From a virus: DNA of 45,378 nucleotides. The position numbers and the translations under genes were made by a program. How positions within the stretch are numbered: the stretch's first letter is position 1; the number at the start of each line of letters is the position of its first letter. The notes under the pieces were generated by a model that was not told the DNA's origin, made no database searches, and worked only from the letters and a program-made list of their open reading frames with translations. The stretch is from positions 1 through 45,378 of IMG/VR virus record IMGVR_UViG_3300027573_000053. The stretch is one strand, 5' to 3'. This document shows positions 14,616 to 19,765 of this stretch, piece by piece.

Positions 14616-14780
14616 CTTACTTCTGCTCCTTTTTATTTTTAGATGACTCTTTTCACCTGTACGGAGCCATCTTTATGGATTATTTTTATTTTATTTTTAT
14701 AAGAATTAGCCGATCGGTGGGCTGTGCTACTCATTTACGAGCCGCCCCGTATGGGACCGTCACCAGCACCCCCCACCTAA

Positions 14781-14923
14781 CGAAAACCAAACATAGACAA
14801 ATGTAACAATCAGCCGAACGAAAACCAAACATAGACAAGCGTATGAATGCGGCCGGCGGCCGAAAATAGACAAGTGTAGAACCTAACACTTACCTAACTA
14901 ACAAAAACCAAACATAGAGCGTG
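14781..14923 (+). repeat. Iteron-like direct repeats, four copies
   Basis: The motif CGAAAACCAAACATAGACAA recurs at about 14781-14800 and 14819-14838. A shortened copy lies at 14861-14877 and a variant lacking GACA at 14903-14923. The starts are 38-42 nt apart, close to four helical turns. Same-orientation spaced repeats in a non-coding, divergent region are typical of iterons or multi-site regulator binding. Confidence 0.6.
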
Positions 14924-16232: not shown

Positions 16233-16382
16233 ATGAAATTCAGACACCGAGAAACCGGACAAATCTGGACATTAATCTTAGTTTGGGAAGATTGCGTTGC
16301 AATCCTCAAGCGAAAGAATGCACAAGCAAGAGTAGGATTAAATGTGTTAGAGACAGACTTTGAGAAAATCACAGAAGAGTAA
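16233..16382 (+). CDS. 49-aa small protein
   Basis: ATG 16233-16235 behind AAAGGTAGG. Begins MKFRHRETGQIWTLILVWED, with basic middle (ILKRKNAQARVG) and acidic tail. Function unknown. It lies between the inverted-repeat arm and the structured RNA. Confidence 0.5.
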   Translation: MKFRHRETGQIWTLILVWEDCVAILKRKNAQARVGLNVLETDFEKITEE

Positions 16383-16395
16383 ACTAGTCTCTTTC

Positions 16396-16495
16396 TTGAT
16401 TGAGAGGATAGGAGACTTAGCCAAAAGAATTGACCCTTTTGTGTGCTAAGCACTATCAGAGAAAGTTCAGGTCAATCTTTCTCACTCTCAATCAA
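16396..16495 (+). ncRNA. Three-way-junction RNA with complementary loops
   Basis: P1 TTGATTGAGAG (16396-16406) pairs with 16485-16495 over 11 bp. GATAG (16407-16411) pairs with CTATC (16453-16457) and encloses P2: CTTAGC/GCTAAG and CAAAAG/CTTTTG, with a 3-nt bulge. P3 is GAGAAAG (16459-16465) with CTTTCTC (16477-16483). Single A linkers (16458, 16484) join the helices. The P2 loop contains TTGACC (16430-16435) and the P3 loop GGTCAA (16470-16475), perfectly complementary. The AAAAAGGAG ribosome site of the next gene begins as P1 ends. It could be a cis-regulatory leader or an independent RNA. Confidence 0.75.
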
Positions 16496-16511
16496 AAAGG
16501 AGATTAGAGCA

Positions 16512-16727
16512 ATGACAAAATTCGAGATATTAATGAAAATCGAAGGATACGACGACGAAATGGAATTCCTTCAAGATTGCACCTTTGATTCAATAAATCC
16601 CGGTATCTGCTGCAATAAAGATTGCGACTATACGACTTCAATTGAACCGGATCAAGATAAGGGTTGGTGCGAAGAATGCAAGACTAATAGTGTCAAGTCG
16701 GCCTTAATCCTTTACGGAATAATTTAA
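16512..16727 (+). CDS. Small Cys-rich zinc-ribbon-like protein
   Basis: 71 aa from ATG 16512-16514, chosen for its AAAAAGGAG site; an upstream in-frame TTG lies inside the structured RNA. An N-terminal helical acidic part is followed by ICCNKDC and WCEEC, four well-placed cysteines for one zinc. Probable nucleic-acid or protein-binding regulator. Spaced one base from the next gene, so cotranslated. Confidence 0.65.
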   Translation: MTKFEILMKIEGYDDEMEFLQDCTFDSINPGICCNKDCDYTTSIEPDQDKGWCEECKTNSVKSALILYGII

Positions 16728-16728
16728 C

Positions 16729-16935
16729 ATGAACCCAACCGATCAAAAGAAAGTCGTTACAATCTGTCCAAAATGCCGCAAAGAGCAAACAATTACAGTA
16801 ATCGAATCAGATTACTATAATTGGATGGAAGGAATGTTGATTCAGCGAGCAATGCCATATCTCACAGCCGACCAACGAGAGGCTCTAATCACTGGCTATT
16901 GCAATTCTTGCTGGGAGGAAATATTCAAAGAATAG
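16729..16935 (+). CDS. Small zinc-ribbon protein
   Basis: 68 aa, ATG 16729-16731. CPKC (residues 14-17) and CNSC (58-61) form a classic zinc-ribbon pair, with a helical insert between. Begins directly after the preceding stop. Likely a nucleic-acid-binding regulator; partner unknown. The minus-strand promoter at 16974-17002 fires antisense to this gene. Confidence 0.65.
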   Translation: MNPTDQKKVVTICPKCRKEQTITVIESDYYNWMEGMLIQRAMPYLTADQREALITGYCNSCWEEIFKE

Positions 16936-16973: not shown

Positions 16974-17002
16974 AGTATAACATAGATTCCCCTATCTGTC
17001 AA
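16974..17002 (-). promoter_or_regulatory. Near-consensus sigma-70 promoter, minus strand
   Basis: Reading leftward: TTGACA (17002-16997), 17-nt spacer, TATACT (16979-16974). It fires into the 15.8-16.9 kb genes in antisense and toward the late block. TTAACA-actc-TGTTAA (16951-16966), a small dyad, lies at the expected start site. Confidence 0.75.
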
Positions 17003-17065
17003 GTTAATTCTTTTTAGGTAGCCAAACCACTATCTTTAAAAAAACGACAATTAACTTGACAGATA
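16993..17065. promoter_or_regulatory. 16-bp inverted repeat spanning divergent -35 boxes (operator)
   Basis: TATCTGTCAAGTTAAT (16993-17008) and its exact reverse complement ATTAACTTGACAGATA (17050-17065) each contain a promoter -35. CAAGTTAA also occurs at 16947-16954. A repressor or activator binding ATTAACTTGA could control both promoters and the third one at 15.57 kb together. Confidence 0.65.
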
Positions 17066-17084
17066 AGGTTTCCTATGGTATAAT
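17056..17084 (+). promoter_or_regulatory. Perfect consensus sigma-70 promoter, plus strand (early)
   Basis: TTGACA (17056-17061), 17-nt spacer, TATAAT (17079-17084). All twelve consensus bases match at ideal spacing. Transcription would start near 17091 and read through the structured leader into the early block. Confidence 0.9.
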
Positions 17085-17734: not shown

Positions 17735-18193
17735 ATGAAAATACCTGAAAATCTCAAGAATGCTCCAATTGGTACACTATGCTGGCATATCCACCACGAT
17801 ACTCTGTATGAGTTATTAGAGGAACCAGCGGAAAATAGATGGTATTATATATTAGCCAACAAACCACAAGGTGAAATAGAGACTCGTTTAAAATTATTCA
17901 GACCAATGACGAGCATGCCATCAGTTTTATCTAAGGCCCACTCAGATTACTGTAAGGCCCACTCAGATTACTGTGAGGCTTGCTCAGATTACGGTAAGGC
18001 TTGCTCAGATTACGGTAAGGCCCACTCAAATTACGGTAAGGCCTACTCAGATTACGGTAAGGCTTGCTCAAATTACGGTAAGGCCCGCTCAGATTGGAAT
18101 AACGCTCTAGAAGATAATCGAAAAGAGTTAGAGACCCTTCATAAAATCGAATGTCCTAATTGTCCTTGGAATGGCAAGACAATTTTTCCATAA
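17735..18193 (+). CDS. Protein with eight tandem heptads and a C-terminal CxxC
   Basis: 152 aa, behind AAAGGAG. The first 65 residues form a compact domain (PIGTLCWHIHHDTLYELLEEPAENRWYYI... type, likely small binding domain). Eight tandem 7-residue repeats (K/E-A-x-S-D/N-Y-C/G) at residues 67-122 follow, then a short acidic helix and CPNCPWNG. Ala and Tyr recur every seven residues, so a coiled-coil or helical stalk is likely. Function unknown; CPNC and repeat cysteines might bind metal or form disulfides. Confidence 0.6.
   Translation: MKIPENLKNAPIGTLCWHIHHDTLYELLEEPAENRWYYILANKPQGEIETRLKLFRPMTSMPSVLSKAHSDYCKAHSDYCEACSDYGKACSDYGKAHSNYGKAYSDYGKACSNYGKARSDWNNALEDNRKELETLHKIECPNCPWNGKTIFP
17933..18100 (+). 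repeat. Eight tandem 21-bp repeats (coding)
   Basis: Each unit is a variant of AAG GCC CAC TCA GAT TAC GGT. The third codon varies (CAC, TGC, TAC, CGC), others change rarely, so the array expanded recently and can change length by slippage. Confidence 0.85.
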
Positions 18194-18918: not shown

Positions 18919-19191
18919 ATGACTACTTTAGTTCCTATTGACGAGCAAACACATTCAATAATCAACAGCAATGGCTATGGTAATGGTAATGGCTATGGCG
19001 ATGGCAATGGCTATGGCGACGGCAATGGCTATGGCTATGGCGACGGCAATGGCTATGGCGATGGCTATGGCTATGGCAATGGCAATGGCTATGGCTATGG
19101 CGATGGCGATGGCGATGGCGATGGCTATGGCTATGGCTATGGCTATGGCGATGGCAATGGCTATGGCAATGGCAATGGCTATGGCTACTAA
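18919..19191 (+). CDS. Gly-x repeat protein, copy 1
   Basis: 90 aa. A unique 17-residue head (MTTLVPIDEQTHSIINS) precedes an unbroken alternation of Gly with Tyr, Asn or Asp (GYGDGNGYG style) to the end. The pattern comes from a GGC-TAT/AAT/GAT array. Related Gly-Asp-Tyr strings are known in phage and bacterial genomes beside DUF6948-like genes (from memory). Could be a flexible, polar, phase-separating or metal-binding peptide. Near twin of 19449-19739. Confidence 0.6.
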   Translation: MTTLVPIDEQTHSIINSNGYGNGNGYGDGNGYGDGNGYGYGDGNGYGDGYGYGNGNGYGYGDGDGDGDGYGYGYGYGDGNGYGNGNGYGY

Positions 19192-19210
19192 TCAAAAAAG
19201 GAGAAAATGA

Positions 19211-19471
19211 ATGAGCTGTATTTTTGTGCTTCAACGCGGCTGGGTAGTAGTAGGCCAAGTCGAATCAGAACAAGAGAATCTTATCACACTAACACACACG
19301 TCTTGTATTCGTCGGTGGGGAACAACTAAAGGACTTGGCGAATTGGCCGAAAAAGGTCCATTTAAAAACACCGTTTTAGACAAGAAACCCAAAACAAGAT
19401 TTCATCCACTAACCGTAGTGCAATCCATTGAATGCTCGGAGAAATGGAATGACTACTTTAGTTCCTATTGA
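19211..19471 (+). CDS. DUF6948-like small protein
   Basis: 86 aa. The core 'CIRRWGTTKGLGELAEKGPFKNTVLD' region matches, from memory, a small phage/bacterial family (DUF6948-like) with conserved RRWGTT and NTVLD motifs; function unknown. ATG 19211 preferred over 19207, which opens a shorter frame. The C-terminus (EKWNDYFSSY) is encoded by the duplicated segment and overlaps the second Gly-repeat gene by 23 nt in another frame. Confidence 0.6.
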   Translation: MSCIFVLQRGWVVVGQVESEQENLITLTHTSCIRRWGTTKGLGELAEKGPFKNTVLDKKPKTRFHPLTVVQSIECSEKWNDYFSSY

Positions 19472-19739
19472 CGAGCAAACACATTCAATAATCAACAGCA
19501 ATGGTAATGGTAATGGTAATGGCTATGGCGATGGCTATGGCTATGGCTATGGCGATGGCAATGGCTATGGCGACGGCAATGGCTATGGCTATGGCGACGG
19601 CAATGGCTATGGCTATGGCAATGGCTATGGCGATGGTGATGGCGATGGCAATGGCTATGGCTATGGCTATGGCTATGGCGATGGCAATGGCTATGGCGAT
19701 GGCAATGGCAATGGCAATGGCAATGGCTATGGCTTCTAA
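19449..19739 (+). CDS. Gly-x repeat protein, copy 2
   Basis: 96 aa from ATG 19449 with GGAG seven bases before it. Head identical to copy 1; the Gly-Tyr/Asn/Asp array is six residues longer and ends in Phe rather than Tyr. Long antisense and shifted frames through the array are artefacts of the trinucleotide pattern. Confidence 0.6.
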   Translation: MTTLVPIDEQTHSIINSNGNGNGNGYGDGYGYGYGDGNGYGDGNGYGYGDGNGYGYGNGYGDGDGDGNGYGYGYGYGDGNGYGDGNGNGNGNGYGF

Positions 19740-19765
19740 TCAAGAAAGGAGAAAATGAATGACAA

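Follow-up and report, generated by a model that had tools for sequence, protein, structure and literature searches.

The element lies in the genome of an uncultured virus (record IMGVR_UViG_3300027573_000053), which we analyzed over its whole length of 45,378 bases, hereafter the window. The phage encodes a large terminase (phrog_2 type), a portal and a major head protein, and the window carries a plus-strand replication block with a family A DNA polymerase. A gap of 129 nt separates the stop of a 49-aa ORF, whose relatives were found in the same virus only, from the start of a 71-aa zinc-ribbon-like ORF. Since a second zinc-ribbon-like ORF of 68 aa starts 1 nt past the stop of the 71-aa ORF, the two are probably under common control. 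The features of the locus, all on the plus strand, are as follows:

16233–16382, plus: upstream 49-aa ORF (MKFRHRETGQIWTLIL...), with Shine-Dalgarno sequence (SD) AAAGGTAGGTGA and TAA stop at 16380–16382, read from the sequence
16384–16394, plus: outer 5' arm of P1 (CTAGTCTCTTT), the anti-SD strand, pair probabilities 0.88–1.0
16396–16406, plus: inner 5' arm of P1 (TTGATTGAGAG), fold prediction
16407–16457, plus: P2, branched 18-bp arm interrupted by an internal loop and by a bulge of 3 nt (TGT, 16442–16444), fold prediction
16429–16435, plus: ATTGACC in the P2 loop, complement of the P3 loop, read from the sequence
16459–16483, plus: P3, 7-bp hairpin GAGAAAG...CTTTCTC, fold prediction
16470–16476, plus: GGTCAAT in the P3 loop, read from the sequence
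16485–16495, plus: inner 3' arm of P1 (CTCTCAATCAA), fold prediction
16496–16507, plus: A16496 and the outer 3' arm of P1 (16497–16507, pair probabilities 0.88–1.0), holding the SD AAAGGAG (16496–16502)
16512–16727, plus: 71-aa zinc-ribbon-like ORF (CxxxxC...CxxC), ATG 9 nt past the SD AAAGGAG
16729–16935, plus: 68-aa second zinc-ribbon-like ORF, phrog_20898, of unknown function

The surroundings are rich in repeats. Upstream, a 30-nt inverted repeat (93% complementary, 15718–15747/16196–16225) flanks a 130-aa ORF, and the SD belonging to the 49-aa ORF falls within its 3' arm. Downstream, a 38-nt inverted repeat (82%, 16972–17009/17049–17086) carries two diverging, near-perfect sigma70-like promoters, one on the plus strand at 17056–17084 (12/12) and one on the minus strand at 17002–16974 (11/12); judged by its sequence, the latter could run antisense into the zinc-ribbon genes. 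Iteron-like direct repeats (AACGAAAACCAAACATAGACAA) at 14772–14918, in a 1.2-kb stretch without coding sequence that separates divergent gene blocks, are a possible replication origin. Two related ORFs (18919–19191 and 19501–19758) consist of 6-nt-based repeats (GGCTAT/GGCAAT) encoding an NGYGDG-type peptide, and a further ORF (17921–18109) contains 21-nt tandem repeats. The very stable folds at 18982–19700 were discarded as simple repeats inside ORFs.

A predicted three-way junction between two ORFs

Folding of the plus strand predicts 47 pairs in the 124 nt at 16384–16507, arranged as a three-way junction, with pair probabilities of 0.82–1.0 across the whole element in a 300-nt context. The strands of P2 (16407–16427 with 16436–16457) enclose the loop AAUUGACC (16428–16435) and those of P3 (16459–16465 with 16477–16483) the loop UUCAGGUCAAU (16466–16476). 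Single adenines, A16458 and A16484, form the junction linkers, and P1 and P2 adjoin without a linker. The initial annotation had placed such a junction at 16395–16496, and its inner P1, branched P2, P3 and single-A linkers were all recovered; within these limits the fold itself was confirmed, with 36 pairs in place of the 35 claimed. It had also described P1 as an 11-bp helix with the ribosome site beginning at its end. This part needs revision: P1 runs 11 pairs further and covers the SD. The complete P1 is a 22-bp helix composed of the inner 11 bp, a C16395·A16496 mismatch and 11 outer pairs (16384–16394/16497–16507). The TAA that closes the 49-aa ORF ends at 16382 and, after a gap of one nucleotide, P1 begins at 16384; at the other end, outer P1 takes in most of the SD belonging to the 71-aa ORF.

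The two loops are exactly complementary, as had been proposed, over 7 nt (AUUGACC/GGUCAAU) instead of a hexamer. The loop duplex amounts to -9.1 kcal/mol, and by simple counting we estimate a probability of about 6e-4 that loops of these sizes (8 and 11 nt) would share a 7-nt complement by chance. In the modelled fold a loop-loop contact within the RNA is possible.

The predicted structure at 16384–16507 has an energy of -51.4 kcal/mol (z -6.5), and the shorter segment 16395–16496 a z-score of -4.9. None of 500 shuffles was as stable in either case, which bears out the earlier view that chance formation is implausible; as a prediction the structure is real and well formed. The minus strand of the element folds nearly as well (-47.6 kcal/mol, z -6.1) because the element is a near-perfect inverted repeat, and the strand is therefore not decided by energy alone. 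We infer that the plus strand is the functional one because it carries the ORFs on either side, the SD and the pair of 71- and 68-aa genes. An intrinsic terminator was considered and rejected, as no terminator-like site was detected on the plus strand and the helix is followed by AGCAATG and not by a T run.

Other copies of the element were found only in two near-identical contigs of the same virus, IMGVR_UViG_3300012231_000073 and IMGVR_UViG_3300012143_000084. One copy (L002) showed no difference across the 1,700 bases that were compared, and copy L013 differed by six substitutions and a single 21-nt deletion over 1,107 bases. The sole difference of L013 within the element, G16441A, loses the C16422-G16441 pair at the foot of the P2 tip. 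Outside the element, one change in L013 turns an A-U pair of the 15718–15747/16196–16225 helix into G-U. Nothing else related was retrieved by a DNA search of phages and plasmids, by a covariance model (R1) applied to 11 virus records and later loci, or by four exact-pattern scans of viral and bacterial collections. Seven other pattern matches were dismissed, being located in unrelated sequence and unmatched by R1. Since no homologous RNA was found, nothing shows the pairs to be under selection. A comparison with Rfam gave no match at the gathering score or at E-values up to 5, and the sub-threshold hits in the region were microRNA models matching long hairpins, in agreement with the initial annotation, which had recognized no known class.

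Accessibility of the ribosome site and candidate functions

In the modelled transcript the SD of the 71-aa ORF has an unpaired probability of 0.16. When considering 36 candidate starts of the phage this is tied for the lowest access among plausible genes; the two starts below 0.16 are both antisense to long genes. We then modelled the effect of opening the nucleotides past the upstream stop codon. If the opening extends to 16391, 16393 or 16394, the expected edge of a ribosome terminating at 16380–16382, SD access rises to 0.50, 0.76 and 0.81, respectively, and inner P1 remains closed; access of about 0.8 thus corresponds to coverage of 11–12 nt past the stop. As in coupling elements, the downstream SD is thus paired in the predicted mRNA and an upstream ribosome is able to reach the structure. 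Burial does not extend to all three leading SDs of the cluster: the SD of the 130-aa ORF was 0.64 open in a local test.

Cis control had been listed as one option among several, and the location of the SD inside P1 favors it. We consider the chances about even that the element acts in cis between the two cistrons, locking the SD until translation of the upstream ORF opens it (translational coupling). Assuming co-transcription, the mRNA would carry the 49-aa ORF, the element, the 71-aa ORF and the 68-aa ORF in this order. The bases just past the first stop codon would pair with the SD region that precedes the 71-aa ORF, at a distance of about 100 nt, and the inner three-way junction would serve as a compact clamp that joins both strands and stabilizes the lock; the complementarity of the loops would at most stiffen this clamp. 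Ribosomes reaching or terminating at 16380–16382 would cover or melt the outer P1 arm (16384–16394), exposing AAAGGAG for initiation at the 71-aa ORF, and the 68-aa ORF would follow by stop-start coupling. The zinc-ribbon pair would accordingly be made only upon translation of the 49-aa ORF.

The RNA-unfolding model, according to which a ribosome on the upstream gene uncovers a masked site further downstream, is covered in the sections of a review on coupling drawn on here (PMC12548453), with phage f1 VII/IX, MS2 coat/lysis and E. coli rpmI-rplT (at +52 nt) as examples. The action of a small intergenic ORF on a masked ribosome binding site has also been demonstrated (PMC8092293). Besides the lack of homologous RNAs in the searches above, two observations count against the proposed lock. 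The gap of 129 nt exceeds the coupling spacings quoted in these sections of the review, which further state that coupling usually becomes weaker as distance grows and that weaker coupling correlated with structure just past the stop codon (PMC12548453). Furthermore, phage relatives of the 71-aa gene have ordinary upstream regions without a comparable lock, with SD unpaired probabilities of 0.90 (L003), 0.79 (L004) and 0.32 (L021).

RNase III sites between cistrons are a classical feature of early operons in phages, and a helix of two turns is long enough for the enzyme. P1 comprises two helical turns with one C·A mismatch and so attains the duplex length of about 20 bp or more. Cleavage of the predicted 22-bp P1 between the ORFs would separate the messages and free the SD of the 71-aa ORF. 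We hold this to be unlikely; it is compatible with an SD lock and might be part of it.

The junction with its two complementary loops, an SD under control and the recurrence of SD locks on the zinc-ribbon gene family elsewhere would also suit a sensing element, in which the junction, together with the loop contact, would recognize a metabolite or some phage protein, such as one of the zinc-ribbon proteins in feedback, and set SD access. An alternative fold in which the loop 7-mers form a 7-bp helix is 8.6 kcal/mol worse, therefore a simple two-state switch is not favored and a bistable arrangement was rejected. The element moreover was found in a single virus only, matches no Rfam family and offers no conserved core for comparison, so that we regard sensing as quite improbable. 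Only a very slim chance is given to the narrower version, a junction-clamped switch whose loop-loop contact would sense a ligand or phage protein and set access to a ribosome binding site more than 100 nt from the upstream stop.

It is very improbable that the feature works at the level of DNA, with ATTGACC...GGTCAAT as a repeated protein-binding site and the inverted repeat as an operator or cruciform. A second convergent ATTGACC/GGTCAAT pair does exist 0.8 kb upstream (15646–15652/15712–15718), within a strong predicted fold, and the 7-mer is enriched at 15.6–18.9 kb, where 5 of the window's 12 GGTCAAT sites are located. However, the paired bases are mostly outside the 7-mers, and a 22-bp helix exactly between stop codon and SD would be left unexplained.

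The dimer, ring or packaging RNA suggested initially, a trans-acting molecule similar to the phi29 packaging RNA, finds an argument in the exact 7-nt complementarity of the loops and their duplex of -9.1 kcal/mol, yet it is scarcely credible for an element that is located between coding genes of a cluster with its 3' arm in the ribosome site of the next gene, shows no promoter or terminator of its own, matches no packaging RNA in Rfam and belongs to a phage with an ordinary-type large terminase and portal.

A Shine-Dalgarno-burying hairpin in alphaproteobacterial relatives

Relatives of the 71-aa protein are encoded by phages (L003, L004 and Roseobacter phage CRP-6), alphaproteobacterial genomes and Rhodobacterales plasmids. 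Nine alphaproteobacterial leaders have in common a 60-nt hairpin that buries the SD (model R2). It consists of a P1 containing the SD, a small asymmetric internal loop and a P2 of the CGGCAYC...GRUGYCG type. Changes on both sides were observed in 12 of the 17 consensus pairs, and 89.5% of cells were paired. These values were reached by none of 500 shuffles, and the signal was lost on sliding the partner. The R2 hairpin was located at the following sites, four of which include copies outside the set used to build the model:

L033: 2884–2943, 3788–3848 and 5770–5830 (the last outside the set, before a DUF3768 gene, Pfam)
L030: 2943–3003
L049: 1411–1470
L059: 1286–1353 (outside the set, in tandem) and 1411–1470
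L064: 1723–1780, minus
L036: 2917–2979
L037: 2915–2973
L038: 2920–2979
L035: 305–366 (outside the set, before a 53-aa ORF)
L101: 1501–1556, minus (outside the set, before a 65-aa ORF followed by a DUF3768-like ORF)

In a sample of 385 genomes from across the class, hits above 35 bits were confined to two, and the zinc-ribbon gene is encoded in both. No Rfam family matched the R2 hairpin, and no R2 copy was detected before the DUF3768 genes of six sampled plasmids. The Rhodobacterales plasmid relatives have a terminator-like leader in its place, with no R2 match. The SD-burying hairpins before the alphaproteobacterial relatives indicate that translational control of the gene family recurs, and they support the view that the zinc-ribbon genes are often under such control. 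Of the two structures, the bacterial hairpin with its covariation may lend itself better to publication.

Comparison with known systems

Judged from the modelled fold, the role of the phage element is most likely of an ordinary kind, control by a hidden ribosome site, in the unusual form of a three-way junction; the exotic readings have no support. Should the proposed lock operate, it would show that translational coupling is able to bridge about 130 nt with the help of a folded junction that brings the region of the stop codon to the ribosome site of the following gene, a point relevant to the possible distance between coupled genes. It would also provide a compact, naturally occurring module through which one small phage gene is made to depend on another. 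The bacterial hairpin in turn suggests that the zinc-ribbon gene family has repeatedly been placed under translational locks.

With the phi29 packaging RNA the element shares complementary loops; it differs in that it has no Rfam match and in that its position and the packaging genes do not fit. The purine riboswitch is likewise a three-way junction with complementary loops. Here the arms have 18 and 7 bp, Rfam gives no match and the known conserved core was not recognized. The alphaproteobacterial R2 hairpin likewise hides the SD in the zinc-ribbon gene family. In contrast to the phage element it is a 60-nt structure of two helices that covaries strongly and has conserved bases of its own, and coupling to an upstream gene is not evident. 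Membership of the phage element in R2 was rejected at a score of 3.9 bits (16481–16514, filters off), and the two are therefore parallel in function and not related by kinship. Closest in function are the SD-sequestering coupling structures of f1 VII/IX, MS2 coat/lysis and rpmI-rplT, as described in the sections of the review drawn on here (PMC12548453), in which a hidden downstream SD could likewise be opened by upstream translation within one gene cluster. The phage element, known here as a prediction, differs from these in spanning 129 nt from stop to start by means of a three-way junction and in pairing the bases after the stop codon directly with the SD.
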